A DNA stretch of 47,167 bases from an uncultured Oscillospiraceae bacterium (GTDB lineage: Bacteria; Bacillota; Clostridia; Oscillospirales; Oscillospiraceae), in the NCBI GenBank assembly GCA_944385465.1, contig CALWXH010000007.1, forward strand, positions 1 to 47,167. The letters are read 5' to 3'. Under the pieces are notes generated by a model, which searched no databases, was not told the origin of the DNA, and saw only the letters and a list, made by a program, of their open reading frames with translations. A program made the translations under genes and the position numbers. Positions 1,402 to 47,167 of the stretch are shown here, piece by piece. Within the stretch, counting starts at the first letter, position 1. Every line of letters starts with the position of its first letter.

Positions 1402-1429
1402 GCCCCCGCTGGACACAGACTGAAAGAGC

Positions 1430-1465
1430 GCGCCCCCGGGCCAACGGCCCGGGGGCGCTTCGTCT
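1430..1465 (+). terminator. Intrinsic terminator after the ABC exporter
   Basis: A 13-bp perfect GC stem (1430-1442 with 1446-1458) and a 3-base loop are followed by TTCGTCTTTT. It lies between the + strand ABC gene and the - strand SLH gene, with the T-rich tail on the + side. Confidence 0.8.
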
Positions 1466-1480
1466 TTTATCAAATCGGTT

Positions 1481-2286
1481 TCAGCCCACCTGCTGCTCCA
1501 CCAGGTGCACCAGGATGGCCGCCAGCTGCTCCCGGGTGATGAGGTCCTCCGGCGCGAACTGCATGCCGCTGTAGCCCAGGACGATGCCGTTGCCCCTGGC
1601 CCAGTACACCGCGTCGGTATACCAGGTGTCGGGGGCCACGTCCTCAAAGGGATAGCCCAGATTCCCCTCCAGCTCCGGCTCGCCATCCATGCGGTAGAGC
1701 ATGGTGACCAGCTGGCCCCGGGTGGTGTCGGCGTCCGGGCTGAAGGTGGTGTCCGAGGTGCCCTGCATCACTCCCGCAGCAATGGCCGTAGCCACCTTCA
1801 CAACATACCAGGCGTCGGGGTCAATGTCGGTATACAGTTCCTCCAGGGCAGCGCCGGCCAGCCGCTGCTCCACCCTCAGCTCGGTGTTCAGCGTCTCGGC
1901 CAGCTCCCGCAGGTAGCTCCCCTCCATGGGGTTGTCCAGCAGGTCTTTCACCAGGGTGTAGAACGCGTCATCCACCTTCAGATAGATGGCGTAGCTGTCG
2001 GTGTAGGCCTGGGCCCAGGTCTCGCCGGTGCCGTCAGCCAGGAACTCGATCTGGGCCAGCGCATACATCGTCGCCGCGTCCGAATAGTCCATGGACACCG
2101 CTTCAAAGCGGCGGATGGCCTCGTCAGTCCGGTCCGCGTCCACCTTCTTCATACTGGATGTCCTCAAAGTCCAGGCTGGTCCTGGAAGAAATCCGTCTCC
2201 CTCACTGCGTCGGCAGCCAGGGCCGAGGGGCACAGGCTGATTGCAAAAACCAGCGCCAGCACCAAACCCAGTATTCGTCTCTTCAT
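1481..2286 (-). CDS. Secreted S-layer-homology (SLH) domain protein, frameshifted after the signal peptide
   Basis: The real start is the ATG at 2286 (GGGGAG upstream), giving a clear signal peptide MKRRILGLVLALVFAISLCP with an ALA-A cleavage site. That frame stops at 2164-2166 after FFQDQPGL, while the body (IRRFEAVSMDYSDAATMYAL onward) continues in another frame to 1481, so the gene is broken near 2150-2190. The C-terminal ~110 residues hold two SLH repeats (WYVVKVATAIAAGVMQGTSD, then ITREQLAAILVHL), which usually anchor proteins to secondary cell-wall polymers. The ~100-residue helical segment before them resembles, by eye only, the N-terminal lobe of M3-type peptidases, but no HEXXH is present. 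Either a decayed gene or a sequencing error. The cell-surface location is reasonably sure, the activity is not. Confidence 0.6.
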
Positions 2287-2356
2287 CCTTTGCACTCCCC
2301 TTTCCAGCGTACTCACGGGCGCGGTATATCCCGCGTATGGTACGAACCCTGTTCTG

Positions 2357-2384
2357 AGTATACACCATTGCCTCCGTCCCGCAA
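2357..2384 (-). promoter_or_regulatory. Possible promoter of the SLH-protein gene
   Basis: On the minus strand, TTGCGG (2379-2384), a 16-bp spacer and TATACT (2357-2362), about 70 bp upstream of the ATG at 2286. The -35 box is imperfect. Confidence 0.4.
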
Positions 2385-2408
2385 CAAAAACGCAATGGTT
2401 TGGGGGAT

Positions 2409-5400
2409 TCACTCCCGCTCGCTGAGCAGGCTCATCAGGTTGGTGCAGCCCACCGCCGCCACCGCCAGGGCGCAGCCGATGAGATAGCACACCAGGAAGG
2501 CGGCCGCAGCCAGCCAGCCCACCCAGCCGCCGCCCAGCAGGGTGAGCAGGACGCTGCCCACGACGCACCCCAGCAGGGCCAGGGCGCCCTGTTCCAGGAA
2601 GAAGGTGGCAAACACTCGGCCCTTGGAGGCCCCCAGTCCCCGGAGGACGGCGAACTCCATCCGCCGGCCGTTGACCATGAGCCAGGAGACGATGAAGCCC
2701 AGCAGCCCCACCGCCCCGCACAGGGCGGGGAGCAGAATCTGGCTGAAGGTGATGTACCGGCCCAGGCCGGCCACCGTCTCCACAAAGGCCTGGTCCCGGA
2801 GCACCACGTTGGTGCGGTTGGAGGTGATCTTGCCCACCTGAGTAAAGTTCTGGCCCTCCAGATAGTCCCGCAGGGCGTTCAGATCCCGGGCGGAGTCCAG
2901 GGTGAACCGGCAGGTGGACAGGTTGGTATTCCAGTAGAAGAAGGCATCCCGCCCGGCCGCGTCGGTAAAGTTGGAGTTGGGCCGCTCCCCTTCCGCCAGG
3001 AGGGCCTCCTCCCCCACGATCCAGTCCAGCTCGCACCAGAAGGACAGGGGAACATAGATCTCCCGCTGCCCGCCGGCGCCGGAGTAGGCTCCCACAACCT
3101 GAAGGGAGACCACTTCATTATAGTTTTGGGACAGGACTGGAATGCGGATCTGTCGGTTGAACCCGTCCCCCAGCTCCAGCTCCATCTGTTCCAGAAATTC
3201 CTGGCTCACCAGGCAGGGATAGGTCAGCGACGGCTTTCCCCCGTTCAACTGGCTTTGGTTGAAATAGAAGTCCATGCTGTCCAGGATGGAGTAATACTCT
3301 GTATCCGACAGGAAGCTCTCGTCCCAACCCTCCAGCCACTCCACCTGGGGCTCCTCCCCGTAGTAAAAGGCGGGGGCGGCGGACAGGTCGTTGAGGGCCA
3401 CCAGCTGCGGCTGCTGGCTGATCCAGGCGTTCATGCTCTCCATGCCAAAGGAGGTGTCGGAAAATTCGGGCATATCCACCCAGGACCAGTAGGGCCAGCC
3501 CTTGCTCACATAGATCTCCTCCATCAGCCCGGACTCCCACAGCAGCCGGGCGTTCCGGGCGGAGACGGAGAGATTGGTGGCCTGCCGGCCGTTGAGGCTG
3601 GTCACTTCGCCGGTGATGACGGTAGTGTCGTACAGGGTGTCCATCTGCTCGTCCCAGCCCTGGGCGGTGGAGGTCATCACCCCCAGCAGCAGGGCCAGGG
3701 CCAGGGCCACCGCGGGCACCACCCCGGAGCGCCAGCCGCCCCGGCGGACGGACAGCAGGGCGAACCGGGCCGCCCCCTGCCCTGTCGTGCTGGTGCCCCC
3801 CTTGGGCACCCGGACGGTGGATTTGCCCTGTTTCCGCACCGCTTTCCGCCGGGCCAGGCTCAGGAAGGCCAGGCACAGCGCCAGCGCCGTGCAGAACACC
3901 GCCAGGGCGGCGGCCAGGGCGGGCCACCAGGGCAGCTCCCCCATCTCCGGCGCGGCCTGGGCCACGCCGATGGCGGCCTCGCTGTACCGCTGGTCCACGG
4001 CGTACAGCCCCTGGGCGGCGGACAGGGCCGCCTGGAGGATGCGCCCCATGGACAGCCGGCCGATCAGTGCCCCCAGGACGGCCGCACAACCCGCGATGAC
4101 CACCGCCCCGGACACCAGCCACAGCCGGATCTTGCCCCTGGGCGTGCCCAGGCAGGTGAGCACCTCCACCGTCTCCCGCTGCCGGCCCACAAACAGGTAG
4201 CCGAAGAGCAACAGCACCGCCAGCGCCCCGCAGGCGCAGGCTGTGGTGATAGCCAGAGCGGTGGACTCCATAGCCCGGAGAGGCTGGGCGGCGGTGGAAT
4301 AGCCCTGGTCGTACAGGGTCACCCGCACCCCCTCGGGCGCCATGGCCTGGAGGGCGTCGGCGGCCTGGCGGCCCTTGGCGTTGTCCAGCACCGCACGGCC
4401 CAGGTTGTAGCCGAAGCGGGGCTGGCCGAAGCCGCCCTCGGCGCAAGACACCCAGACGCACCCGGCGTAGTCCTGCGCGTCGTTGGTGATCCCCACGATC
4501 TCCAGCGTCCGGGTCTCCTCGTCCACCGTCAGGTCAAACCGGTTCTCCTGTCCGGCGCTGAGCATGGTCAGCTCCAGGGTATCCCCTACGCTCAGCCCCA
4601 TCTGGCCGGCGGTGCGGCCATCCAGCACGCACACCCCCGCCTCCCCCGGCTGGGGAAAGCGGCCCTCCGACAAAAACAGGGCCTGCTGCTGGAAGGGCTC
4701 CAGGGCGGAAATCTGGTCGCTGGCCTCCAGGCGGACATAGCTGTTCATCGCCCGGTAGTAGTCCGCCCAGTCGACAAAAATGCTCTCTGTCAGGGCGGGG
4801 TCATCCGTCCCGGACAGCGCCAGATAGGGCGGTGTGTCGTCTTCCTCAGAAAAGGTGGTCAGCAGGAAGGTAGTGTTGGCGGACGCCCCGAAGGTGAACA
4901 CCCCGTGTAAAAGGTAGCGGGTTCCGCGCTGGGGGACAAAGTCCGTCTCCCCCGGATCCACAATGGCCAGCACCCCATCCCGCTGGTCTGAGGGCAGATA
5001 CAGCCCATCCACAATGGAACAGGAGTAGCCGGAAATGACCCGGCCCAACACCCCGTACTGGTCGGTAAGCGGGTCATAGTAATACAGCGTGTCCTCCCCC
5101 TGGCGATAGGCGGCGGGTATGGTACCCATCAGCTCTCCCGAGAGCATCCAGGGCTCTTCGATGATCTCCCCTTCCTCCACCTCATCCATCACAGTCTCCC
5201 CATCCTCGTTCAGGACGTAACGGAAAAGGGCAGTGCGGGCCACGCCGTCGGGGGAGCCCTCCGCCGTGTACTCCACAGTCATGTAATTGGGCACCACCAG
5301 CGGCTCCAGCCCCGGGGCATAATAGGTGAAATCCATGCTCATGGTGTTCATCACCAGGCAGGCCTCCGGCAGGGTCACTTCCCCCTCCAGCCACTGGATC

Positions 5401-5807
5401 CCGCTTCCGTACATGGGGGAGAAGCTGGTGGCCACCACCACGCCGTAGTCCTCATAGGGCAGGGCGCCGTCCACCCGGGAGTAGCCGCTTAGGGCGGCCA
5501 GGGCCTGGTCCGTGGACTCCCACAGCTCCACGCCGTCGATGGCGGCGATGGCGTCCCCGTCCAGGGCCTGGGCGGCCTGGCGGGCGTAGTCGTCCGCCGT
5601 GTCAGCGTCCGGGTAGTTTTGGCCCATGTACTCCACCAGGGCCACGCTGGTGTACTGGCCGTCCATCGCTGCCAGGGTGCGGGCGCAATAACTCCACATC
5701 CCCAGCCCCAGGGTGAGGGCCAGGGTGAGCAGCAGAATCAGCAGGGTGAACAGCACCGAGCGCCCTCGGGCCCGAAGGGTGGAGCGCACGCCGTTTCGCA
5801 CAATCAT
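2409..5807 (-). CDS. FtsX/MacB-type ABC transporter permease
   Basis: A large (1132-residue) permease of the FtsX family, the membrane partner of the ATPase encoded just upstream (5 bp away). The layout is the duplicated MacB-like one: an N-terminal helix (SVLFTLLILLLTLALTLG), an extracellular domain of about 480 residues, a central cluster of helices, a second extracellular domain, and three helices near the C-terminus. Such pairs act in lipoprotein or peptide export, antimicrobial-peptide resistance or cell-wall signalling; the substrate here is unknown. I chose the ATG at 5807, preceded by GGGGGTGAGG, over an upstream ATG at 5825 that overlaps the ATPase gene and lacks a ribosome site. No two-component system is adjacent, unlike Bce-type loci. 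No terminator is visible after the gene. Confidence 0.85.
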   Translation of the reverse strand: MIVRNGVRSTLRARGRSVLFTLLILLLTLALTLGLGMWSYCARTLAAMDGQYTSVALVEYMGQNYPDADTADDYARQAAQALDGDAIAAIDGVELWESTDQALAALSGYSRVDGALPYEDYGVVVATSFSPMYGSGIQWLEGEVTLPEACLVMNTMSMDFTYYAPGLEPLVVPNYMTVEYTAEGSPDGVARTALFRYVLNEDGETVMDEVEEGEIIEEPWMLSGELMGTIPAAYRQGEDTLYYYDPLTDQYGVLGRVISGYSCSIVDGLYLPSDQRDGVLAIVDPGETDFVPQRGTRYLLHGVFTFGASANTTFLLTTFSEEDDTPPYLALSGTDDPALTESIFVDWADYYRAMNSYVRLEASDQISALEPFQQQALFLSEGRFPQPGEAGVCVLDGRTAGQMGLSVGDTLELTMLSAGQENRFDLTVDEETRTLEIVGITNDAQDYAGCVWVSCAEGGFGQPRFGYNLGRAVLDNAKGRQAADALQAMAPEGVRVTLYDQGYSTAAQPLRAMESTALAITTACACGALAVLLLFGYLFVGRQRETVEVLTCLGTPRGKIRLWLVSGAVVIAGCAAVLGALIGRLSMGRILQAALSAAQGLYAVDQRYSEAAIGVAQAAPEMGELPWWPALAAALAVFCTALALCLAFLSLARRKAVRKQGKSTVRVPKGGTSTTGQGAARFALLSVRRGGWRSGVVPAVALALALLLGVMTSTAQGWDEQMDTLYDTTVITGEVTSLNGRQATNLSVSARNARLLWESGLMEEIYVSKGWPYWSWVDMPEFSDTSFGMESMNAWISQQPQLVALNDLSAAPAFYYGEEPQVEWLEGWDESFLSDTEYYSILDSMDFYFNQSQLNGGKPSLTYPCLVSQEFLEQMELELGDGFNRQIRIPVLSQNYNEVVSLQVVGAYSGAGGQREIYVPLSFWCELDWIVGEEALLAEGERPNSNFTDAAGRDAFFYWNTNLSTCRFTLDSARDLNALRDYLEGQNFTQVGKITSNRTNVVLRDQAFVETVAGLGRYITFSQILLPALCGAVGLLGFIVSWLMVNGRRMEFAVLRGLGASKGRVFATFFLEQGALALLGCVVGSVLLTLLGGGWVGWLAAAAFLVCYLIGCALAVAAVGCTNLMSLLSERE

Positions 5808-5811
5808 GCCC

Positions 5812-6486
5812 TCACCCCCGCTCATGGACCGCCAGGCCGTCCCGCAGCTCCAGCACCCGGTCCGCCCGCTCTGCCAGCTCCGGATTGTGGGTCACCAGCA
5901 CCACGCAGTAGCAGTTTTCGTGGGCCAGGTTCTGCAGAATGGAGAAGATATTCTCCCCGTTGGCGGTGTCCAGGTTGCCGGTGGGCTCGTCCGCCAGCAG
6001 GATTTTCGTGTCCATTCCCAGGGCCCGGGCGATGGCCACCCGCTGCTGCTCCCCGCCGGAGAGCATGGTGGGATAGCGGTCCAGGGCCTCGGCGGGCAGG
6101 CCCACCCGCTCCACCAGGGCGGCGGCGCGCTCCTTGGCCTGGCGCGCCTTCATCCCCCGCAGCTCCATGGGATACATCACATTTTCCGCCACCGTGAGCA
6201 GGGGAAACAGCCGGAAGGACTGGTAGATCACCGCCGCCTTCTCCCGTCGGTACTGCTCCAGCTTCATCTGGTCGGTGGGCACCCCCTCGCACAGCACCTG
6301 ACCTGAGGTGGGCAGATCCAGCCCCGCCATGAGGGAGAGCAGCGTGGTCTTGCCGCTGCCCGACTTGCCCACGATGGCGTGGAGCAGCCCCTCCTCAAAG
6401 CTGTGGGTGATCCCCTTCAGGGCCTCCACCTTCTGATACTGGGTCTGGTAGGTGTAGCGGACATCCCGCAGTTCCAATACGCTCAT
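5812..6486 (-). CDS. ABC transporter ATP-binding protein (MacB/LolD type)
   Basis: A 224-residue stand-alone ATPase of the MacB/LolD class, which powers the FtsX-type permease encoded immediately downstream. Visible motifs are Walker [10 protein letters not shown], the Q-loop region [17 protein letters not shown], signature [15 protein letters not shown], Walker [13 protein letters not shown] and the switch histidine VLVTHN. The DEPTGNLD form is typical of this class. The start is the ATG at 6486, with AAGGAGG eight bases upstream; a longer reading to 6516 has no such support. It is the first gene of a two-gene operon with a good promoter at 6537-6565. Confidence 0.92.
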
Positions 6487-6536
6487 GGCGCTTCCTCCTT
6501 TTTCCCCTCTATCCACCAGAGTTCGGGGTTTTCCCT

Positions 6537-6565
6537 ATTTTACCTGTTTCTGTCCGCTCCGTCAA
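6537..6565 (-). promoter_or_regulatory. Promoter of the ABC ATPase-permease operon
   Basis: On the minus strand: TTGACG (6560-6565), a 17-bp spacer and TAAAAT (6537-6542), about 50 bp upstream of the ATPase start codon. Near-consensus sigma-A type. Confidence 0.75.
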
Positions 6566-6579
6566 GCTAAAGGATAACC

Positions 6580-6614
6580 AAAAAAAGGAAAGGCTCCCAT
6601 TTGGGCGCCTTTCC
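6580..6614 (-). terminator. Intrinsic terminator after the DUF362 gene
   Basis: Stem GGAAAGGC/GCCTTTCC (6587-6594 with 6607-6614), with a further inner pairing. On the minus strand it is followed by a run of seven Ts (6580-6586). Confidence 0.8.
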
Positions 6615-6646
6615 TCAAAACATGAAAACATGTGATGCAAATTGGT

Positions 6647-7798
6647 TCACCGGTCCAGCAGGCGGGCCACCGGAGTGCGGCGCACCGTCATAGCCCCCTG
6701 GGGGCAGAACTCCTGGCAGCAGAAGCAGCGGATACACCGGTCCCGGTCAATCCCCGGCTTTCCCTTCTTCATGGTGATGGCCTTGGCCGGACAAATCTGG
6801 GCGCACAGGGTGCAGCCCACGCACTTGCTTGCCGTCAGGGCCGGGCGCTGGGTCAGGAGCCATCCGATGAGCTTTCCCCGCAGCCGCTTGAGCCGGCTGG
6901 TTCCATCCCCCTGAAATAACAGGCTGTTTCCGGTGGTGATACGCTGGAAATCCGGGAGGACAAAGGGCTCAGGATTCCCCGCCACGGACAGCTGGCTCAC
7001 CTGGGCGGGGATCAGCCCCCGCTCCAGCGCGGCCTCCAGGGTGGGCACCTCCTCCCGGCGCAGGCCGATGAGGTGGGCGCACAGCAGGTCCACTTTATGG
7101 GGGCTCTCCCCCGCCACCACCGCCCCCATATGCCGGGGGGTGCCGCTGGTGGGGCCGTTGCCCTCCATGCAGTCCACCGCGTCCACGATGGTGAGGCGGG
7201 GGGCGAAATACTCGTCCAGATCCACGATCATCCGGGCAAAATCCCGGGGGTCCGGGTAGCGGAAATGATACTCCGGCTTCACGGTGCCGGGAATGGCGCC
7301 GAACAGGTTCTTCGCGCCGCAGCTCATGGCCATCATGCCGTGGGTCTTGAGCTTGCAGAAGTCAATGATGGCGTCTGCCCCATCCAGGTACGCGGTGTAC
7401 CGGAAGCTCCGGCAGACCTTTCCCCGGGGATTACGGGCGTCCGCCTCGGAAAAGTCCTGGTTCAGCCTGCCGCCGGCCTTCTCCACCGCGGACATGCCGG
7501 CGGCGGCGTACACTTTGCCCACGAACCGGGCGTTGAACAGCCCCCCGGGGCTGTCCCCCACTGTGACTGCTGCCCCCCGCTGCACCAGTAGGCGCACCAG
7601 CGCGCACAGCAGGGCCGGATGGGTGGTGGCGCACCGCTCCGGCTGGAGCCCCGCCACCAGGTTGGCCTTGATGACAATGTGCATGCCCGGCTTGACCCAC
7701 TCCAGCCCGCCCAGGGGCGCCAGCACCTGTTCCAGTGCCCTGCGCGCGTGTTCCGGGGTGTAGTCCGGACACGAGACAATGGATACGTCAGGTTTCAA
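6647..7798 (-). CDS. DUF362 domain protein with C-terminal 2x[4Fe-4S] ferredoxin domain
   Basis: A 383-residue protein. Residues ~1-290 match the DUF362 pattern (IVIKANLVAGLQPERCATTH, GDSPGG, and a central KLKTHGMMAMSCGAKNLFG segment). The C-terminus has two cysteine clusters, CVGCTLCAQICP and CIRCFCCQEFCP, each fitting one 4Fe-4S cluster. DUF362 proteins are common in anaerobes and are assumed to be electron-transfer or redox-linked proteins; the reaction is not established. The start is a TTG at 7798 with GGGGGGA eight bases upstream, because the conserved N-terminus begins there. Only about 17 bp separate it from the terminator of the upstream ispH-rpsA gene, so no separate promoter fits easily and some read-through is likely. 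Confidence 0.85.
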   Translation of the reverse strand: MKPDVSIVSCPDYTPEHARRALEQVLAPLGGLEWVKPGMHIVIKANLVAGLQPERCATTHPALLCALVRLLVQRGAAVTVGDSPGGLFNARFVGKVYAAAGMSAVEKAGGRLNQDFSEADARNPRGKVCRSFRYTAYLDGADAIIDFCKLKTHGMMAMSCGAKNLFGAIPGTVKPEYHFRYPDPRDFARMIVDLDEYFAPRLTIVDAVDCMEGNGPTSGTPRHMGAVVAGESPHKVDLLCAHLIGLRREEVPTLEAALERGLIPAQVSQLSVAGNPEPFVLPDFQRITTGNSLLFQGDGTSRLKRLRGKLIGWLLTQRPALTASKCVGCTLCAQICPAKAITMKKGKPGIDRDRCIRCFCCQEFCPQGAMTVRRTPVARLLDR

Positions 7799-7814
7799 CG
7801 ATGTCCCCCCTACG

Positions 7815-7848
7815 GAAAAAATGGCCCGCCGCAGTCATGCGGCGGGCC
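7815..7848 (-). terminator. Intrinsic terminator after ispH-rpsA
   Basis: A perfect 11-bp stem GGCCCGCCGCA/TGCGGCGGGCC (7823-7833 with 7838-7848) and a 4-base loop are followed on the minus strand by ATTTTTTC. Confidence 0.9.
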
Positions 7849-7867
7849 AGTCTTGCCTCAGTGCGGA

Positions 7868-9844
7868 TTACTCCTCCACAGGAGCCTCGTCCTCGGCCTC
7901 GACCTCGCTGTCATCGGCCTCGTCCTGCACGGGGGCCTCCTCCAGCAGGGCGCGGATGGACAGGGACACCTTCTTGTTCTCATTGTCAATGGCAATGATC
8001 TTGGCGTCCACATTCTGGCCCTCAGCGAGCACGTCGCCGGGCTTCTCGATGCGGTGGTCGGCGATCTGGGAGATGTGGATCAGGCCGTCCACGCCGGGAA
8101 CGATCTCGGCAAAGGCGCCGAAGGTCATCAGCTTGACAATGCGCACGTTGGCCACGTCACCCACGGCGTACTTGGTGGTGAACACAGTCCAGGGCTCCTG
8201 GCTGTGATCCTTCATGCCCAGGGAGATCTTCTTCTTCTCGGGGTCAAAGGAGATGACGTACACGTCCACGCTGTCGCCCACGGAGACAACCTCGGCGGGG
8301 TTCTTGATGCGGGACCAGGACAGCTCAGAGATGTGAACCATGCCGTCCACACCGCCGATGTCCACAAAGGCGCCGTAGGAGGTCAGGCTCTTCACCGTGC
8401 CGGTGTAGTGCTTGCCCACCTCGATGCTCTCCCAGACCTGGGCGGCCTTGGTGGCGCGCTCCTCAGCCTGGACGGCGCGGATGGAGCCCACCACGCGGCG
8501 GCGGGCGCGGTTGACCTCGGTGATGCGCAGCTTCACCTGGCTCTTGACCATGTCGCCCAGATCAGCCCCACGGGGCTTGCCGGACTGGGAGGCGGGAATG
8601 AACACGCGGATGCCCTTGACGCTGGCCACCAGACCACCCTTGTTCTCCTCGGTGATGTAGCCCTCCAGCACTTCCTTGCTCTCCACGGCGTTCTCGATGA
8701 CTTCCCAGTTCTTCCGGGCGTCCAGACGCTTCTTGGACAGCTTGACCATGCAGTCCCGGTCGCTGACCAGGGTGACCTCGGCCTCGATCTCATCGCCCAC
8801 CTTCACCAGGTCCTCCACCTTGGCGTTGGGGTCGTCGGTGAGCTCGGCCAGGGGGATATAGCCGGGATACTTGATGCCCAGCTCCACCTGCACTTCGGTG
8901 GGGGTGATGGCGACGACAGTACCAGTGACCTTATCTCCATTATTCAAAGTTTTGAACGACTCCTCCAGCATCTCCGCGAAGGACTGTTCAATCTCCATAA
9001 TTTCATCGCTCATTTTGTTGTAGACCTCCTTTATTATCCACTCCGGCGTGGATGCGCCGGCAGTGATTCCAAGCGTTTTGACGTGTTGGAATTGCTCTGG
9101 TATGAGCTGTGCTCCGCTCTCCGCCTGTGCCACCAGCGGGCAGCTGGCCTGACACAGTTGCGCCAGACGTCTGGTGTTGGAACTCTTCGGATCCCCGATC
9201 ACGATCATCCCATCACATTGACTGGCCAATTCCACTGCCTCAGATTGACGCTTGGACGTAGCACCACATATTGTATCAAAAAATTCCGCGCTTGTACACA
9301 CTTTTTTCGCGTTTTCAACGGTTTTTTCCCAGGCCTCCCGGATAGCCGTGGTTTGACAGACAAATGTCAGGGGTTTTTCCAATAAATCCGGTCTTTTTCG
9401 GAAGATTTCTTCCAGATCAGACCAGCCGCCGGCCACGATCCCGGTCTGGGTGCAGCCCACGATCCCAACAATTTCCGGGTGATCCGCTTCTCCGATCACC
9501 ACCGGGACACGCCCGGCGGCCTCCGCCTGGCGGACGATGTCATGGATCCGGGCCACATTGGGACAGGTCGCGTCCAGCACCGTACACTCCCGCAGGGCCA
9601 GCTGCTCATAGACCCGGTCCGGTTCCCCATGGGCCCGGATCAGCACACTGGTCCCCCGGGGCACCTCCTCCGGGGAGAACACCGTGACGGCGCCCTTCCC
9701 CTCCAGCCAGCGGATGACGTGGTCGTTATGGGTGATGTGCCCCAGCAGATACACCGGCCCGCGCTCCGCCGCGGCCGCGGCCATGTCCACCGCCCGGCGC
9801 ACCCCATAGCAGAAGCCGGCGGATTTGGCCAGCAGCACCTTCAT
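7868..9844 (-). CDS. ispH: 4-hydroxy-3-methylbut-2-enyl diphosphate reductase (IspH) fused to ribosomal protein S1-type domains
   Basis: A 658-residue fusion. Residues 1-~280 are IspH, the last enzyme of the MEP isoprenoid pathway, which makes IPP and DMAPP on a 4Fe-4S cluster. The three cluster cysteines are Cys12 (AGFCYGVRRA), Cys94 (DATCPNV) and Cys193 (TICGATSKRQSE). Residues ~300-635 hold four S1 RNA-binding repeats; the two best are YTGTVKSLTSYGAFVDIGGV and the later KLMTFGAFAEIVPGVDGLIH. The tail is acidic. This fusion is known from many Clostridia, where it stands in for rpsA. It overlaps the stop of plsC by four bases (ATGA), so it is translationally coupled as the last gene of the baiN-cmk-plsC-ispH operon. 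The order cmk-plsC-ispH is widespread in this class. Confidence 0.96.
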   Translation of the reverse strand: MKVLLAKSAGFCYGVRRAVDMAAAAAERGPVYLLGHITHNDHVIRWLEGKGAVTVFSPEEVPRGTSVLIRAHGEPDRVYEQLALRECTVLDATCPNVARIHDIVRQAEAAGRVPVVIGEADHPEIVGIVGCTQTGIVAGGWSDLEEIFRKRPDLLEKPLTFVCQTTAIREAWEKTVENAKKVCTSAEFFDTICGATSKRQSEAVELASQCDGMIVIGDPKSSNTRRLAQLCQASCPLVAQAESGAQLIPEQFQHVKTLGITAGASTPEWIIKEVYNKMSDEIMEIEQSFAEMLEESFKTLNNGDKVTGTVVAITPTEVQVELGIKYPGYIPLAELTDDPNAKVEDLVKVGDEIEAEVTLVSDRDCMVKLSKKRLDARKNWEVIENAVESKEVLEGYITEENKGGLVASVKGIRVFIPASQSGKPRGADLGDMVKSQVKLRITEVNRARRRVVGSIRAVQAEERATKAAQVWESIEVGKHYTGTVKSLTSYGAFVDIGGVDGMVHISELSWSRIKNPAEVVSVGDSVDVYVISFDPEKKKISLGMKDHSQEPWTVFTTKYAVGDVANVRIVKLMTFGAFAEIVPGVDGLIHISQIADHRIEKPGDVLAEGQNVDAKIIAIDNENKKVSLSIRALLEEAPVQDEADDSEVEAEDEAPVEE

Positions 9845-10437
9845 GTCCCGCTACCTCCCAGCTTCCGGATCCGGTCCATCAGGTCGTCCGCGATGCGCTG
9901 ATAATCCTCCGGCGTGGCCTTGCGCCCCTCGTACTCTGGGTGGTATGGCTGGCCAAAGATCACCGTGGTCTTGCGGAACAGCTTCTTTTCCGGCTGGATG
10001 TACACCGGCACAATGGGGGAATCGGTGCGGGTGGCGAACATGGCCGCCCCGGTGTGGGCTGCGACGCTCTCCCCCTCTTTTACGCGGGTCCCCTCGGGGA
10101 AGAGCAGCAGTCGCTCCCCGTTTTTCAGCACCCGCATACTCTCCTTGATGGCTCCCACATCGGCCTTTCCCCGCTTCACGCCGATGACGCCCACTTTCTT
10201 CAGCAGCCACCCCAGGAAAGGCCAGTGCATGATCTCCTCCTTGGCCATGACATGGGTCTGGAGATGGCGGCCCAGGGCGCACACCACATAGAGCGGGTCG
10301 CCCAGCGTGGTATGGTTGCCGCACAGCACCGCATTGCCGGCCGGGACATGTTCCCTGCCCACCGACCGCCAGGGGTGGAAGATGCGCATGAACGCCCAGA
10401 CAAAGGGGTATGCCGCAGTATACAGCTTATTTCTCAT
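9841..10437 (-). CDS. plsC: 1-acyl-sn-glycerol-3-phosphate acyltransferase (PlsC)
   Basis: A membrane-associated acyltransferase that adds the second fatty acid to lysophosphatidic acid, giving phosphatidic acid for phospholipid synthesis. It has the two family hallmarks: the HX4D box (NHTTLGDP) and the FPEGTR box. At 198 residues it has the usual length of Gram-positive PlsC. The start is the ATG at 10437, with GGAGG eight bases upstream; a GTG nine bases further up is less well placed. The start overlaps the end of cmk, and the stop overlaps the start of ispH (ATGA), so the three are coupled. Its partner plsX lies elsewhere in the window, at 20766-21827. Confidence 0.93.
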   Translation of the reverse strand: MRNKLYTAAYPFVWAFMRIFHPWRSVGREHVPAGNAVLCGNHTTLGDPLYVVCALGRHLQTHVMAKEEIMHWPFLGWLLKKVGVIGVKRGKADVGAIKESMRVLKNGERLLLFPEGTRVKEGESVAAHTGAAMFATRTDSPIVPVYIQPEKKLFRKTTVIFGQPYHPEYEGRKATPEDYQRIADDLMDRIRKLGGSGT

Positions 10438-11134
10438 CGCCGGCACCTCCGCCCTCGCCCAGCCGGTCCCGGATCAGCTTCAGCAGCAGCTGAAAGCTCT
10501 CCTCCCGGCTCATGCCTGTGGTGTCCGCCACAAGGGCGTCCGGAGCCTGACGGAGGGGCGCGGTCGCCCGGTGGGTGTCCTGCTCATCCCGGGCGATCAC
10601 ATCCCGGAGCACCTGCGCCTCCTGCGCCTGCTGCCCGCGCTCCAGCAGCTCCAGATAGCGGCGGTGCGCCCGGTCCTCCGGCTGGGCGGTGAGGAAGATC
10701 TTCACATCCGCATCCGGAAGCACCACCGTGCCGATATCCCGGCCGTCCATGATCACATTCTGCTCCCGGGCCATCCGCCGCTGCATCTCCAGCAGGAACT
10801 CCCGCACCGCCGGAATGGCGGACACGGCGGAAGCCCAGGCGGAAATCTCATGGCGCCGGATCTCCCCGGATACGTCCTCACCGTTGAGCAGCATCTGCTG
10901 CCCGCCGTCCAGGCCAAAGCGCATCCGGATGTCCAGTTGGGGCAGGATGGCCTCAATCCCTGCCCGATCTTCCATGGAGATCCCCCGCCTGCAGGCGGCC
11001 AGCCCCACCGTGCGGTATATGGCGCCGGTGTCCACGTGGAGATAGCCCAGCGCCCGGGCCAGCTGCTGGGACAGGGTGGATTTTCCCGCCCCGGAGGGTC
11101 CGTCGATGGCAATGGCGTGATACTGTGTACTCAT
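10427..11134 (-). CDS. cmk: Cytidylate kinase
   Basis: Phosphorylates CMP and dCMP with ATP for nucleotide recycling in the cytoplasm. The N-terminal P-loop IDGPSGAGKSTLSQQLA, the following substrate region YLHVDTGAIYRTV, and the later IMDGRDIGTVVLPDADVKIF are typical of Cmk. The 235 residues fit the bacterial family. The ATG at 11134 overlaps the stop of the upstream flavoprotein gene (ATGA), and the end overlaps plsC. Linkage of cmk to plsC and ispH-rpsA is a known arrangement in Clostridia. Confidence 0.96.
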   Translation of the reverse strand: MSTQYHAIAIDGPSGAGKSTLSQQLARALGYLHVDTGAIYRTVGLAACRRGISMEDRAGIEAILPQLDIRMRFGLDGGQQMLLNGEDVSGEIRRHEISAWASAVSAIPAVREFLLEMQRRMAREQNVIMDGRDIGTVVLPDADVKIFLTAQPEDRAHRRYLELLERGQQAQEAQVLRDVIARDEQDTHRATAPLRQAPDALVADTTGMSREESFQLLLKLIRDRLGEGGGAGDEK

Positions 11135-12399
11135 ATGGTTGTCCTCTCTTTCCAGCGCCCGGCGGCGGCCAGGCCGGCCGCGTATCCGGTGGCCCAGGCG
11201 ATCTGGAGATTGAATCCGCCGGTATAGGCGTCCACATCCAGCACCTCACCGGCAAAATACAGCCCCTCCAGCTTCTTTGACGCCATGGTGGCGGGATCCA
11301 CTTCCCCCACCTTCACGCCGCCTGACGTGATGATGGCCTCTTCCACCGGCCGGGGCCCGCTCAGGTCCACCGCGAAGTCCTTCAGCGTCTCCAGCAGCTT
11401 CCGCCGCTGCTCTCTGCGCACGTCGCGCCCCTTCTCCTCCCCCGGTAAACCCGCGCGCTGCGCCAGCACCGGGACCATGGAGTGGGGCACCAGCCCGGCC
11501 AGCAGATTGTTCAGGTTCTGATTGGCCTTCTCCTGGAGATCCCGGAGCAGCCTGGCCTCCAGCTTTTCCTCACTCAGCGCCGGCTTCAGGTCAATGTGGG
11601 CGGTATAGCGGTTCTTTTCAAAATTCAGATGGGCTGAGGCGGAGAGCACCAGCGGCCCGGACAGGCCGAAATGGGTGAACAGCAGCTCTCCCTGTTCCCG
11701 GTATACCCGCTTTCCCTTTCCGTCCCGGATAGTGAGCTCCACATTGCGCAGGGACAGCCCCTGCATCCGGGCGCAGCACGGGTCGTCCGATTCCAGCGGG
11801 ACCAGGGATCCCCGGGGCGCAACCACAGTGTGCCCCGCCTGCCCGGCCAGACGGTACCCGTCCCCGGTGGAACCGGTGCGGGGATAGCTGGCCCCGCCGG
11901 TGGCCACAATCAGGGTGTGGCACGGCATGACCGCTTTCCCGTCCCGGATCACCGCGCCGGTCAGGCGTCCGTCCTCCATGCGCAGCGCCGATACTCGCTC
12001 CCGGAGCACCGGCACCTGCAGCCGGCGCAGCTCGTAAAACAGGGCGTCCACAATGTCGGCGGACCGGTCGGACTGGGGAAACACCCGGTTTCCCCGCTCC
12101 ACCTTCAGCGCCACCCCCAGCCCCTCAAAAAAGTCCCAGGTATCCCGGGGGGAAAATCGGGAGATGGCGCTGTACAGAAACTTTCCATTGCGCGGGACAT
12201 TGGCCATGAACTCCTCCGTCCCGCACCAGTTGGTGAGGTTGCAGCGCCCCTTCCCGGTGATATACAGTTTGCGGCCCAGTTTTTCGTTGGGCTCCAGCAG
12301 CGCCACCCTGGCCCCCTGGCGGGCCGCCGTGATGGCTGCCATCATCCCGGCGGCGCCCCCTCCGGCCACCAGGATCTGCTCTTCTTCACGCCGCGCCAC
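11131..12399 (-). CDS. NAD(P)/FAD-dependent oxidoreductase, HI0933/BaiN family
   Basis: A 422-residue flavoprotein. The N-terminal dinucleotide-binding motif is VAGGGAAGMMAAITAARQGA, followed by the family signature KLGRKLYITGKGRCNLTN, and a C-terminal FAD contact near GLYFAGEVLDVDAYTGGFNL. The HI0933-like family is widespread, with unproven roles for most members; some gut members (BaiN) reduce bile-acid intermediates. That specific role cannot be claimed here, because the gene sits in a housekeeping operon with cmk and plsC. The start is a GTG at 12399 with AGGAGGTG seven bases upstream. It is the first gene of the four-gene operon; the leader upstream contains several CTGAAC half-sites. 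Confidence 0.88.
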   Translation of the reverse strand: MARREEEQILVAGGGAAGMMAAITAARQGARVALLEPNEKLGRKLYITGKGRCNLTNWCGTEEFMANVPRNGKFLYSAISRFSPRDTWDFFEGLGVALKVERGNRVFPQSDRSADIVDALFYELRRLQVPVLRERVSALRMEDGRLTGAVIRDGKAVMPCHTLIVATGGASYPRTGSTGDGYRLAGQAGHTVVAPRGSLVPLESDDPCCARMQGLSLRNVELTIRDGKGKRVYREQGELLFTHFGLSGPLVLSASAHLNFEKNRYTAHIDLKPALSEEKLEARLLRDLQEKANQNLNNLLAGLVPHSMVPVLAQRAGLPGEEKGRDVRREQRRKLLETLKDFAVDLSGPRPVEEAIITSGGVKVGEVDPATMASKKLEGLYFAGEVLDVDAYTGGFNLQIAWATGYAAGLAAAGRWKERTTI

Positions 12400-43849: not shown

Positions 43850-43891
43850 CCATAAAAATAACCACACCGTTAGGTGTGGTTATTTTTATGG
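43850..43891 (-). terminator. Terminator of tRNA-Thr
   Basis: A 19-bp perfect stem with loop GTTA (43850-43868, 43873-43891). The CCA end of the tRNA forms the base of the stem. T-rich on the minus strand. Confidence 0.8.
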
Positions 43892-43964
43892 AGCTGGAAA
43901 CGTGACTTGAACACGCGACCTGCTGATTACGAATCAGCTGCTCTACCGACTGAGCTATTCCAGC
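43889..43964 (-). tRNA. tRNA-Thr(CGU)
   Basis: On the minus strand, a 76-base cloverleaf with encoded CCA. The acceptor stem is GCTGGAA/TTCCAGC. The D-arm is AGCTCAGTCGGTAGAGC. The anticodon stem GCTGA/TCAGC encloses the loop TTCGTAA, anticodon CGT, which reads ACG (Thr). The T-arm is GCGTG-TTCAAGT-CACGT. It has its own promoter and terminator. Confidence 0.96.
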
Positions 43965-44613: not shown

Positions 44614-45480
44614 TCACAGGTTCAAAAAGCGTTTCAGCTCCTCCAGTCTGCTCTGAAAATCCTGTATCCCCAATTCATACAGCTCCCGCTCCGCCGCTTC
44701 CTTCATGGAATAGGTGCCCACCCGCACCTCCCGGCTGGGGGCGAATACAAAGGCCGTCCCCTCCCGCTCCAGCTCAAAGACCCGGCGCTGATTTTCGGCG
44801 TAGGTGATGTGGCGGCGGTCGATGGCGGAGATGATGGCCGGATAGTTCCGGCAGGCCCTGGCGTACAGAAAGCGCATCCCCTGCGGCTTTCTCACATAGT
44901 CCCTGGGCTTGGACAGGATCACCACCAGCCGGCCGCACCCGTCCTCCAGCGCCCGGTCCACCGGAATCGCGTCGGCGATCCCTCCGTCGTAATAGGGCAC
45001 GCCGTTGAGCTCCACCGGACGGCAGGCGGCGGGAATGGCGCAGGACGCCATCACCAGCCGGTAGTCGTCCTGCCTGAGCGACTCTTTCCCATAGTATTCC
45101 GGCTGGCCCGTGAGGGCGTTGGTCACCACCACCTGATACCGCGCGGGGTGATTCATCAGCGCCTGGAAGTCCAGGGGGTCCTTTCCCGTGGAGTTGGTCA
45201 GGGTCCCATATATGTACTTCAGGCCGAACAGATCGCCCGTCTTTCTCCAGCTCTTCAGGCCGAAGTATTCCGGCTCATGGATATGCTGGGTAAAAAACCG
45301 CAGGTTGCGTCCCCGCTGTCCGGCCAGATAGGACGCCAGATCCCCCGCCCCGCCGGACACGCCGATGCAGTAGTCAAAGGTGATGTGGTGGTCCAGAAAG
45401 GCGTCCAGGATGCCCGCATTGTAGGCGCACTTCATGCCGCCGCCCTCCACCACCAGGCCATATTGTTCTGTGTGTTCCAT
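44614..45480 (-). CDS. Patatin-like phospholipase (RssA/YjjU type)
   Basis: A 288-residue patatin-family lipid acyl hydrolase. The oxyanion loop LVVEGGGMKCAYNAGILDA, the nucleophile Ser42 in GVSGGAG (GxSxG), and the catalytic Asp165 in VPYYDGGIAD make the Ser-Asp dyad complete. It is predicted cytoplasmic or membrane-peripheral; no signal peptide. The substrate is not known, and related bacterial proteins are called YjjU or RssA without clear function. The start is ATG 45480 with GAGGAG nine bases upstream. It follows the tRNA-Ser terminator directly, so its promoter must be near or read through the tRNA-Ser region, which was interrupted by the integrated element. Confidence 0.93.
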   Translation of the reverse strand: MEHTEQYGLVVEGGGMKCAYNAGILDAFLDHHITFDYCIGVSGGAGDLASYLAGQRGRNLRFFTQHIHEPEYFGLKSWRKTGDLFGLKYIYGTLTNSTGKDPLDFQALMNHPARYQVVVTNALTGQPEYYGKESLRQDDYRLVMASCAIPAACRPVELNGVPYYDGGIADAIPVDRALEDGCGRLVVILSKPRDYVRKPQGMRFLYARACRNYPAIISAIDRRHITYAENQRRVFELEREGTAFVFAPSREVRVGTYSMKEAAERELYELGIQDFQSRLEELKRFLNL

Positions 45481-45491
45481 GGCTATGCTCC

Positions 45492-45540
45492 TCAAAAAAG
45501 AAAAGACGCCGGAGCAAGCGATACAAAGCTTGCTCCGGCG
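45492..45540 (-). terminator. Terminator of the original tRNA-Ser gene
   Basis: A 13-bp perfect stem CGCCGGAGCAAGC/GCTTGCTCCGGCG (45507-45519 with 45528-45540) starts right after the tRNA CCA. It is followed on the minus strand by TCTTTTCTTTTTTG. Confidence 0.9.
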
Positions 45541-45597
45541 TGGCGCAGCGGGTGGGATTCGAACCCACGTGCAGTTGCCTGCAAACTGATTTCGAGT
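45541..45597 (-). other. 3' half of tRNA-Ser(CGA): probable attachment-site remnant (attL/attR)
   Basis: On the minus strand this reads the 3' part of a type II tRNA. It starts in the anticodon loop (CTCGAAA, anticodon CGA). Then comes the long variable arm TGCAG-GCAA-CTGCA, T-arm GTGGG-TTCGAAT-CCCAC, acceptor strand CCGCTGC, G and CCA. The 5' half (with GCAGCGG) is missing, and upstream of the loop the bases no longer pair with the anticodon stem. Such half-tRNAs are left behind when an element integrates into the anticodon region of a tRNA gene. The intact tRNA-Ser is expected at the other element end, outside the window. Confidence 0.8.
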
Positions 45598-45751
45598 TTT
45601 CCCGCCGTCTGTTACTTACATGTTTTCTCCTGTCAGTTTCAGTCAGTCTTGTACGCCCGCAAACCCGCATGAAATCTGGGCTTTTTGAAGAAATCGCCCG
45701 AAAATACGGAGGAATCGCCCATCGGTTCCAATCCACGATTTTTCCGCTTTT

Positions 45752-45781
45752 GGAAAGAACTGCGGAAAGAACGGAAAGAAC
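45752..45781 (+). repeat. Three direct repeats GGAAAGAAC near the attachment site
   Basis: GGAAAGAAC occurs at 45752-45760, 45764-45772 and 45773-45781. Direct repeats about 150 bp from the core site are typical of arm-type binding sites for tyrosine integrases or excisionases. Confidence 0.6.
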
Positions 45782-45852
45782 AAAAATGAAAAGGCAATAC
45801 ACGGACAGTTCGAATGCCGACAAAGATTATCAAGATATTGAGGTGTATTGTC

Positions 45853-46458
45853 ATGAAAGAAAACGCAATCAATTGGGACGCCGTTCCCGATGTGATCACC
45901 AAGGATCAGCTGTATCGCATTTGCCACATCAGCAAATCCACCGCCCTGTACCTGCTCCAAAGCGGGAAAATCCCCTGCGAGTACACAGGCAGGAAAACCC
46001 GCTGCTACAAAATCAAAAAGGAGGATGTGATTGCCTATCTGGAAAACCGCAAGGTGTTCCCTGAAAGCTACTCCGCTCCAGCGGGCTGGTACAAAGGCGA
46101 TTATACTGTCCAGATGGAGGAACAGGTTCCCAAAATCGTGCGGGAGCATTTGCGTCTGTATTATACCGAGCTGCTCTCCGACTATCCCGACGTGCTGACT
46201 ACGCAGGTGGTTTCCAAAATCACCGGCTACGGCAAAACTTCAATTAACAACTGGTGCAATCAGGGGCACATCAAGTCTTTCCGGAAAAACAATGTCAACC
46301 ATATTCCGAAGGTCTATTTGGTGGAGTTCTTTTGCTCCACATACTTCCGTACCATCACCCGCAAATCGCCGTGGCACATCCGCACCCTGCAAGGTTTTTC
46401 AAGCTGGCGGAAAATCCGTGACCTGCACACGGCAGACAGCGAAGGAGGTGCGGAGTAA
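45853..46458 (+). CDS. Double helix-turn-helix (excisionase-like) DNA-binding protein
   Basis: A 201-residue protein with two MerR/excisionase-like winged helices. The first is at residues ~16-65: ITKDQLYRICHISKSTALYL, then CEYTGRKTRCYKIKKEDVIA. The second is at ~115-160: TTQVVSKITGYGKTSINNWC, then NQGHIKSFRKNNVNHIPKVY. Excisionases bind arm and core sites of mobile elements and control the direction of recombination. That fits its place beside the tRNA half-site and the direct repeats, but a transcriptional role is also possible. The start is ATG 45853, with GAGGTG seven bases upstream. Its stop overlaps the next start by one base (TAATG), so the two genes are coupled. Confidence 0.75.
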   Translation: MKENAINWDAVPDVITKDQLYRICHISKSTALYLLQSGKIPCEYTGRKTRCYKIKKEDVIAYLENRKVFPESYSAPAGWYKGDYTVQMEEQVPKIVREHLRLYYTELLSDYPDVLTTQVVSKITGYGKTSINNWCNQGHIKSFRKNNVNHIPKVYLVEFFCSTYFRTITRKSPWHIRTLQGFSSWRKIRDLHTADSEGGAE

Positions 46459-46757
46459 TGGCAAATTTCTTAGAAGAGCTGTACTACGGAAATGTTGATC
46501 CGCAGGCCAGAAGTTACCGAAAGGGCAGTCATAATTTTAAGGTTTCAAAAGACATCAACGAGCTGGAAGAAAAGCTGACTGAGCGCTTGAGTGGCGAGGA
46601 GAAGGTGCTATTTCTTGACTTCTGCAATGCCTACGGGGAACTGATGGGCGAAACCGGCCTCGATTCCTTCCTCGTCGGCTTCCGCCTCGGCGCAAAAATG
46701 ATTTTCGATACCTTTTGCAGCGATGACGCTCCGTTTGAAAGCTATCTGAAAGATTAA
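46458..46757 (+). CDS. DUF6809-like small protein
   Basis: A 99-residue acidic protein with the pattern FLEELYYGNVDPQARSYRKG at the N-terminus and a helical rest (NELEEKLTERLSGEEKVLFL, then FLVGFRLGAKMIFD). I recall this layout from small proteins classed as DUF6809, found in mobile elements of gut Firmicutes. Function unknown. The ATG at 46458 overlaps the stop of the two-HTH gene by one base, with GGAGGTG upstream, so they are one operon. A hairpin with a T-rich tail follows at 46767-46807. Confidence 0.7.
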   Translation: MANFLEELYYGNVDPQARSYRKGSHNFKVSKDINELEEKLTERLSGEEKVLFLDFCNAYGELMGETGLDSFLVGFRLGAKMIFDTFCSDDAPFESYLKD

Positions 46758-46766
46758 TCTAAAATG

Positions 46767-46807
46767 AGCCTCCTTTCAGCAGAGCGTGCCGTTGGAGGCT
46801 TATTTTA
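46767..46807 (+). terminator. Terminator after the DUF6809-like gene
   Basis: AGCCTCC/GGAGGCT (46767-46773 with 46794-46800), loop 20 bases, then TATTTTAT. A long loop makes it weaker than the other terminators. Confidence 0.55.
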
Positions 46808-46907
46808 TACCCGATAGGGTGTGTTTAGCCTGCAAGCACATAGATTTATACCTTTTAGGGTATAATATTTATAGTAACGCCTTGACTTTATACCCGTTAG
46901 GGTGTAA
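46805..46907. promoter_or_regulatory. Three 20-bp dyad operators upstream of the HTH gene
   Basis: TTATACCCGATAGGGTGTGT (46805-46824), TTATACCTTTTAGGGTATAA (46846-46865) and TTATACCCGTTAGGGTGTAA (46888-46907) share one pattern, TTATACC-N4/5-AGGGTRTAA. They are spaced 41 and 42 bp apart, about four helical turns. The third lies exactly between the -35 and -10 boxes of the HTH gene promoter. This is a classic layout for a cooperative auto-repressor. Confidence 0.85.
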
Positions 46908-46910
46908 AAT
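46882..46910 (+). promoter_or_regulatory. Promoter of the HTH gene
   Basis: TTGACT (46882-46887), a 17-bp spacer that is almost wholly operator 3, and TAAAAT (46905-46910). Confidence 0.8.
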
Positions 46911-46943
46911 AAATGAAGATTTATATTGAGGAGGCGAAGCACC

Positions 46944-47147
46944 ATGAATAAGATTGCCGCATTTATCAAAGAAAACCGAAGAGCCGCCGGACTGACGCAG
47001 GAGGAGTTTGCCGCCCGCAGTGGGCTGGGGCTTCGCTTTATCCGAGAACTGGAGCAAGGAAAAGAAACAGTTAGAATGGATAAGGTCAACGCCGCTCTTG
47101 CCATGTTCGATATGGAAGCCGTCCCCGGCAGAAAGGATGATAAATAA
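46944..47147 (+). CDS. Small HTH regulator (possible HipB-like antitoxin)
   Basis: A 67-residue Xre/Cro-type HTH protein. The helix-turn-helix is at residues ~18-37: LTQEEFAARSGLGLRFIREL; then EQGKETVRMDKVNAALAMFD. The size and the following coupled gene match HipB-type antitoxins, where HipB represses its operon through dyad operators. The three dyads upstream agree with that. The start is ATG 46944, with GAGGAGG eight bases upstream. Its stop overlaps the next ATG by one base (TAATG). A phage-type repressor or plain regulator cannot be ruled out, as the partner is cut by the window. Confidence 0.85.
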   Translation: MNKIAAFIKENRRAAGLTQEEFAARSGLGLRFIRELEQGKETVRMDKVNAALAMFDMEAVPGRKDDK

Positions 47148-47167
47148 TGGACGCATTCCGAACAGCC
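47147..47167 (+). CDS. Start of a gene coupled to the HTH regulator (truncated by window end)
   Basis: The ATG at 47147 overlaps the HTH stop (TAATG). Only seven residues, MDAFRTA, are inside the window. If the upstream gene is a HipB-like antitoxin, this would be the start of the HipA-type partner, which in Firmicutes is often split with a short N-terminal protein first. Too little sequence to test. Confidence 0.35.

Follow-up and report, generated by a model that had tools for sequence, protein, structure and literature searches.

Near the right end of the window, the whole 47,167-nucleotide stretch of DNA analyzed here from an uncultured Oscillospiraceae bacterium, a tRNA-Ser(CGA) gene stops in its anticodon loop and is continued by AT-richer DNA. 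The locus raises two questions: what divided this gene, and what, if anything, has taken its place?

Results

A Half tRNA-Ser(CGA) Gene Adjoins the Left End of an Element

The minus strand of the window carries, at 45541–45597, the 3′ part of a tRNA-Ser(CGA) gene, comprising the anticodon loop, variable arm, T arm, 3′ strand of the acceptor stem and CCA. Downstream of it lie the host terminator (45501–45540, minus strand), which folds as a strong hairpin followed by a T run (z −5.5 for 45490–45610), and a host patatin-like phospholipase gene (Patatin and DUF6363 by Pfam; 44614–45495, minus strand). A nearly identical hairpin stands behind the tRNA-Ser(GGA) gene of the same genome (contig C94; L002:17–48). 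Neither ARAGORN nor Rfam finds a whole tRNA at 45541–45597, and the sole tRNA that they report in the window is tRNA-Thr(CGT) at 43889–43964, which is intact and lies 1.6 kb from the split gene.

We compared the 57 nucleotides with intact tRNA-Ser(CGA) genes at seven loci of the same genus and found no changes at three (L036, L038, L039), one change at three others (L040–L042) and three changes at L037. Past these 57 nucleotides the intact genes enter their 5′ half (CAG...), and the window has TTTCCCGCC right after 45597. Since identity spans the whole anticodon loop up to its 5′ edge, we define the attachment core as ATTTCGAGT (45589–45597), a sequence found at both junctions, left and right, and within the element's own tRNA described below. 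A first-pass annotation had described a tRNA-Ser 3′ half with its own terminator, broken inside the anticodon loop; the sequence, the fold and the seven same-genus loci bear this out, and the break can be refined to the 5′ edge of the loop.

From 45598 to the contig end at 47167 the DNA matches element copies among loci L065–L101 by blastn, and its junction resembles theirs. Only 1.57 kb of this new DNA is present, because the window is the entire contig C7 (47,167 bp) of a genome in 108 contigs. The first gene of the element encodes a 201-residue HTH_17 (excisionase-like) protein (45853–46458, plus strand) and is followed by genes for a 99-residue DUF6809 protein (46458–46757, plus strand) and a small helix-turn-helix protein (HTH_31/HTH_3; 46944–47147, plus strand), all assigned by Pfam. 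An ATG at 47148 starts a further reading frame that is still open where the contig ends. G+C content is 47.5% in 46001–47000 and 55–71% in the remaining 1-kb steps, in agreement with the earlier description of AT-richer DNA with HTH genes in place of the 5′ half.

A search of named contigs with the HTH_17 protein returned 37 loci, with identities up to 99%. Their hosts, as named in the records, are mostly Clostridia and Oscillospiraceae, and also include Lachnospiraceae, Mediterraneibacter and Merdibacter. A plasmid origin was considered and found no support, the HTH_17 protein having no match in a plasmid collection. Seven unannotated phage-labeled fecal records contain distant relatives only, with 22–44% identity over most of the protein plus a short piece at 66%.

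We read the boundary at 25 of the 37 loci (L088, L089 and L096, from the other twelve, were read separately). At 21 of these 25 the element begins directly behind a tRNA-Ser 3′ half ending in the core; at one of the 21, L091, that half belongs to another element. The remaining four junctions have no adjoining tRNA 3′ half. Two are off-target insertions outside tRNA genes at near-core sequences, GATTTAGAGT in L065 (8805–8861) and AAGTTTTCGAGT in L066 (9699–9755); at L086 the core is there and the tRNA is one segment distant, and at L075 no boundary was recognized. The record containing L065 is a MAG titled Merdibacter. Across loci the tRNA halves vary and the element side stays similar within a lineage, which, with the off-target junctions, argues that the target is the short core and not the whole tRNA. 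The relatives' left ends are thus like that of the window, and the earlier proposal that 45541–45597 marks one end of an integrated element stands, with the element starting at 45598. At locus L071 the distance from the arm repeats to the HTH_17 gene is longer by ∼207 bases (9727–9941), perhaps through insertion of a small repeat.

The Host 5′ Half Lies behind a Foreign Half on a Second Contig

No intact tRNA-Ser(CGA) was found in this assembly, in which ARAGORN names the serine anticodons GGA, TGA and GCT. A search of the assembly with the tRNA-Ser 5′ half matches contig C94 and, twice, the start of contig C106. The C94 match was ruled out as the partner end, being the intact tRNA-Ser(GGA) gene with the similar terminator, and contig C8, with a core-like site close to its end, gave no result and was dropped. 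Contig C106 contains, in order, GATTTCGAGT, a 5′ half (acceptor CCGCTCC), ∼160 bp, GATTTCGAGT again and a second 5′ half (acceptor CCGCTGC; L163:211–242). Over its first 236 bp it shares 98.7% identity with the right end found in genome G336.

Full pairing with the window acceptor strand, GCAGCGG, is reached only by the second, outer half of C106. When the window half is joined to this outer half, ARAGORN reports a tRNA-Ser(CGA) that is intact and pairs throughout its acceptor stem; joined to the inner half, the window half yields a tRNA call with one acceptor-stem and one anticodon-stem mismatch. In the same-genus genome G034, an uninterrupted tRNA lies between homologs of window 36.7–41.6 kb and of C106 from ∼1.8 kb, with ∼106 and ∼142 bp separating the tRNA from the aligned flanks; the alignment excludes window 41.6–45.5 kb and the first ∼1.5 kb of C106. 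Because the outer half pairs and joins fully and G034 has an uninterrupted tRNA between the homologs, C7 and C106 most plausibly represent the two sides of a single host gene that has been split.

The first-pass annotation had predicted that the other end would carry an intact tRNA-Ser(CGA) repeating 45541–45597. This was not so: C106 begins with a foreign 5′ half, followed by a lone host 5′ half. Its expectation of an empty site in relatives next to the patatin-like gene holds for the uninterrupted tRNA of G034, with the patatin gene falling outside the aligned homology. The integrase that it placed at the other end occurs as a tyrosine integrase at the far end of the element in relatives and not in this assembly, where no member of the family matches at E ≤ 1e-60 and five other PF00589 matches are present. 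The element body, including the element's own 3′ half, is likewise absent from the assembly. Since that half and the integrase are absent, we infer the replacement tRNA in this genome from its 5′ half and from relatives. At L056, L057 and L059, from the same genus, the tRNA-Ser(CGA) adjoins a related integrase, so the apparently intact tRNA there may be element-borne.

These absences, together with the presence of tRNA-Ser(TGA), would also suit a dead remnant, in which an old insertion destroyed a dispensable tRNA and no replacement acts. However, C7 ends within an open frame and C106 begins exactly at the core, the pattern of an assembly broken at repeats, and related copies elsewhere have both an integrase and an intact tRNA. 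We therefore regard a dead remnant as quite improbable.

Right Ends of Related Elements Carry Their Own tRNA-Ser(CGA)

The 341-residue integrase has a match at E ≤ 1e-60 in 91 of the 394 genomes of the order. Our right-end sample comprises 30 integrase loci, 40 further stretches (a subset of the matches) and seven earlier loci; many of the compared genomes are MAGs or drafts. Read in order, the right end in relatives has a tyrosine integrase and a terminator, next the 3′ half of a tRNA, core A and a 5′ half, and, after ∼160 bp, core B and the host 5′ half. ARAGORN identifies 39 non-redundant tRNA-Ser(CGA) genes in the sample, each with an acceptor stem paired at 7/7 positions, and in 27 of the 39 an additional 5′ half lies 169–211 bp farther on. 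For the other 12 no further 5′ half was listed: none was found in L164, L204, L207, L215, L235 and L252, and in L175, L088, L197, L199, L210 and L245 the script missed the core at its expected place.

The two kinds of 5′ half differ sharply in their fit to the element's 3′ half. Acceptor pairing at 7/7 positions is reached by the element's own 5′ half in 27/27 cases and by the outermost (host) half in 2/27; a pattern-based count gives the same 27/27 versus 2/27, and random re-dealing of the acceptor halves matches 5.8 on average and 13 at most. The three anticodon-stem pairs form with the own half in 26/27 and with the outermost half in 15/27. At four right ends (L096, L192, L244 and L257) the element 3′ half finds an equally good partner in the next 5′ half. 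The right ends L173 and L174 are 91% identical over 635 bp and differ in their acceptor and anticodon-stem strands, with both sides changed in matched fashion. Together, the consistent own pairing and these matched changes argue that the element owns a complete tRNA-Ser(CGA) and that the outer half is the host's.

In all seven genomes tried (G000, G335, G336, G338, G340, G341 and G412), the host acceptor halves from the two ends re-pair, with one G-U pair in G338 and an identical acceptor in three of the seven. These genomes keep one host half at each end, and the host tRNA is not regenerated. Genome G343 was excluded from this comparison for its more tangled arrangement (L170–L172), where a whole tRNA-Ser, a segment and the left end of an element stand in that order and another 3′ half, apart from them, runs into other DNA.

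Both Ends Lie on a Single Contig in G412

The whole arrangement is present on contig C1 (742 kb) of genome G412, an assembly of 10 contigs. The host 3′ half (acceptor GGACAGG) is at 512.8 kb, and the element tRNA (GGAGCGG/CCGCTCC), core B and the host 5′ half (CCTGTCC) follow one another at 445.7–445.9 kb. The cores are 67,085 bp apart, and the DNA between them may include more than one element. With ARAGORN, the left junction yields no tRNA and the right junction the element tRNA, and joining the two host halves gives a tRNA-Ser(CGA).

With all long-arm tRNAs inspected in G412 and in G164 (2 contigs), the integrase-adjacent tRNA is the sole Ser(CGA) in each genome. In G164 the sole Leu(CAA) likewise adjoins such an integrase; no left end was located for the G164 element.

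A chimera of assembly or binning, joining unrelated DNA at a tRNA, might be suspected in a genome of 108 contigs with a contig end so close to the junction. The same kind of junction at 21 of 25 other loci, and the presence of both ends within the one 742-kb contig of G412, make such an artifact hardly credible, and we retain the reading of a genuine insertion.

The Host Promoter Appears to Face the Element tRNA

We first expected a promoter in the ∼160-bp spacer, and scans show none as a rule. By consensus matching, promoter-like sites occur within 130 bp upstream of the outermost 5′ half at 24 of 33 right ends, compared with 5.7 after mononucleotide shuffling, and in the element-tRNA spacer at 2 of 33, compared with 4.3 after shuffling. 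In C106:1–400 the single promoter-like site, TTGACA-17-TATCGT, is upstream of the host half. Judged from these sequences, the element tRNA for the most part has no recognizable promoter of its own, but the promoter of the host tRNA is directed toward it.

The left end of the element in the window has three GGAAAGAAC repeats (45752–45781, plus strand), putative arm-binding sites for the integrase, with the arm-like repeats GGAAAGAA at 45752, 45764 and 45773. Arm-like repeats are also found in the right-end spacer, and they covary by lineage with those of the left end across the four genomes compared: GGAAAGAA in G000 and G336, GGACAGAA in G341 and GGAGAGAA in G340. Their presence on both sides fits an attachment site composed of spacer, core B and left end.

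The best explanation of the window is that it holds the left end of an integrative element family common in the order. A tyrosine integrase would recombine the ∼9-bp core ATTTCGAGT of the element with its identical counterpart in the host tRNA-Ser(CGA) anticodon loop. Integration would split the host gene into a 3′ half (45541–45597) and a 5′ half (C106), neither of which is completed, and would bring in a complete tRNA-Ser(CGA) located ∼160 bp inward of the right core and oriented like the host gene. Transcription from the host promoter would then give a precursor containing the orphan host 5′ half, the ∼160-bp spacer, the element tRNA and the element terminator, from which RNase P could release the replacement tRNA. 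The promoter capture that this would entail leads to a testable prediction on tRNA precursor transcripts. The replacement is possibly helpful and not essential, since tRNA-Ser(TGA) may read UCG codons.

We hold with considerable confidence the joint reading that an integrase acting at the core splits the host tRNA-Ser(CGA) and that the right end of the element supplies a complete substitute gene. The split halves, the matched stems of the element tRNA, the second core, the arm-like repeats and the mainly host-side position of recognizable promoters are visible at the sequence level, mostly in relatives.

Successive Insertions May Leave Stacked Segments

Because core A lies within it, the element tRNA is itself a new target; elements can therefore stack, and ∼200-bp segments can remain as scars. 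Beside integrase remains at L089 and L091, a 3′ half is joined to the left end of another element. Two consecutive segments of ∼170–200 bp are present at L165, L175, L192, L201, L211 and L244. In G341, the contig passes from the host half to the element tRNA without a body matching the second segment of L165, the layout expected if an older element departed via core A recombination. The element's own tRNA-Ser(CGA) has its core altered to ATTTCGAAT at L088 (L088:9443) and L214, which, as a guess, may protect the replacement tRNA from further insertion.

Double segments of this kind would also suit classical integration, in which an element-borne 3′ half rebuilds the host gene and the ∼200-bp segment between the cores pre-existed in the host, as a scar or a separate cassette. 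Locus L164 points the same way: 11.2 kb separate its cores (991–12190), a whole tRNA lies at the right end and a second core was not seen. This locus looks classical, but it may be a decayed copy, since a related integrase was not found there. Against classical integration as the general rule, the element 3′ half matches the first 5′ half across lineages in 27/27 cases, L173 and L174 differ in both halves in matched fashion, and the arm-like repeats of the segment are those of the element left end in the four genomes compared. We accordingly consider classical integration unlikely and prefer replacement by an element-borne gene.

Related Integrases Adjoin Other Long-Arm tRNAs and Accompany Conjugation Genes

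Related integrases adjoin tRNA-Leu (CAA, TAA and CAG) and tRNA-Ser(TGA), with Met or Gln in three cases; the integrase tree has weak inner support. At 19 of the 26 loci other than Ser(CGA), a second stretch resembling core plus 5′ half scores above the best of 200 shuffles, and 16 of these 19 stretches lie at 181–227 bp. Within the 19, the aligned copy is without the core at L216 and L242. L222 and L238 fall under the shuffle bar yet have the core. No second core was found at L229, L241, L248, L250 or L254 of these 26.

The copy at L166 measures 16.5 kb from left core to core A and encodes an integrase, ParB, a MobA-type relaxase, AAA_25 and Fic proteins, in addition to methylase, specificity subunit, GmrSD-like and TnpV proteins. 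A Pfam scan of 10 of its 18 listed ORFs includes Phage_integrase and a MobA/VirD2-type relaxase. The G412 copy has Phage_integrase, a MobL relaxase, a T4SS-DNA_transf coupling protein, a TraG P-loop ATPase and dnd genes. Of the 20 proteins scanned with Pfam over the two copies, a subset of the ORFs, none belongs to a phage structural family; relaxases, a T4SS-like ATPase and a coupling protein are among them. The combination of integrase and relaxase, with or without T4SS-type genes, that identifies an integrative mobilizable or conjugative element is thus found in relatives only, and the gene content of L166 and G412 indicates that the family mixes mobilizable and conjugative elements with defense cargo. 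Cargo rich in anti-phage defense genes (dnd, R-M, GmrSD-like and PDC-S18; PADLOC names) is seen at L074, L188, L312 and L166.

A broader proposal, which we consider somewhat better than an even bet, is that a clade of conjugative and mobilizable elements, widespread in Clostridia, breaks long-arm tRNA genes (Ser CGA and TGA; Leu CAA, TAA and CAG) and replaces them by complete, promoterless substitutes under a captured host promoter, with successive insertions turning over tRNA genes and leaving stratified ∼200-bp scars.

Discussion

Replacement of a tRNA gene, described so far in a few phages, here reaches mobilizable and conjugative elements, whose integrase family is present in 91 of the 394 genomes examined in the order. 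The short core would be usable in many hosts without a matching host tRNA, as a conserved anticodon loop suffices. By implication, a cell's sole copy of a tRNA can be mobile, tools that assume a rebuilt host tRNA may put the ends of elements in the wrong place, and nested halves form a readable insertion history.

Integrative mobilizable and conjugative elements of Firmicutes combine an integrase with a relaxase and have a variable cargo region. The elements here resemble them in having integrase and relaxase, and the G412 copy adds a coupling protein and a T4SS-type ATPase.

In classical tRNA-targeting genomic islands, as outlined for Islander (PMC4383910), a fragment carried by the island regenerates the host gene. 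The present elements share with the islands so outlined a tyrosine integrase, a crossover in the anticodon loop and a displaced tRNA fragment at one end. The hallmark of a host tRNA split at one end beside an integrase is found here as the half tRNA of the window and the integrase of relatives. In contrast to that outline (PMC4383910), the host gene remains split and a second, complete gene replaces it.

A literature search over titles and abstract openings, covering few subscription papers, returned no report of integrative elements that replace their target tRNA gene. The closest known system is tRNA-dependent lysogeny, described in actinobacteriophages (Guerrero-Bustamante and Hatfull 2024, PMC10865867), which follows the same principle. 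Its Discussion mentions one Lactobacillus prophage outside Actinobacteria, and the term also appears in two Sinorhizobium prophage papers (PMC12429752, PMC11476347). As in tRNA-dependent lysogeny, the core is short (ATTTCGAGT here; ∼10 bp in the type system) and the tRNA is rebuilt at neither junction (G412). In the present elements the stems flanking the core vary from host to host.

Several features set the present elements apart from that system. Those scanned have relaxase and conjugation genes, their hosts are Clostridia by record titles, and the layout is seen where the targeted tRNA has a long arm (Ser and Leu). In contrast to the phages, the tRNA lies inside the attachment region and itself contains the core; it is mostly without a recognizable promoter and stands in line behind the promoter of the host tRNA; and insertions stack, leaving ∼200-bp segments. 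The element class, the position of the tRNA in the attachment region, the apparent promoter capture and the stacking are thus the points on which these elements differ from tRNA-dependent lysogeny.
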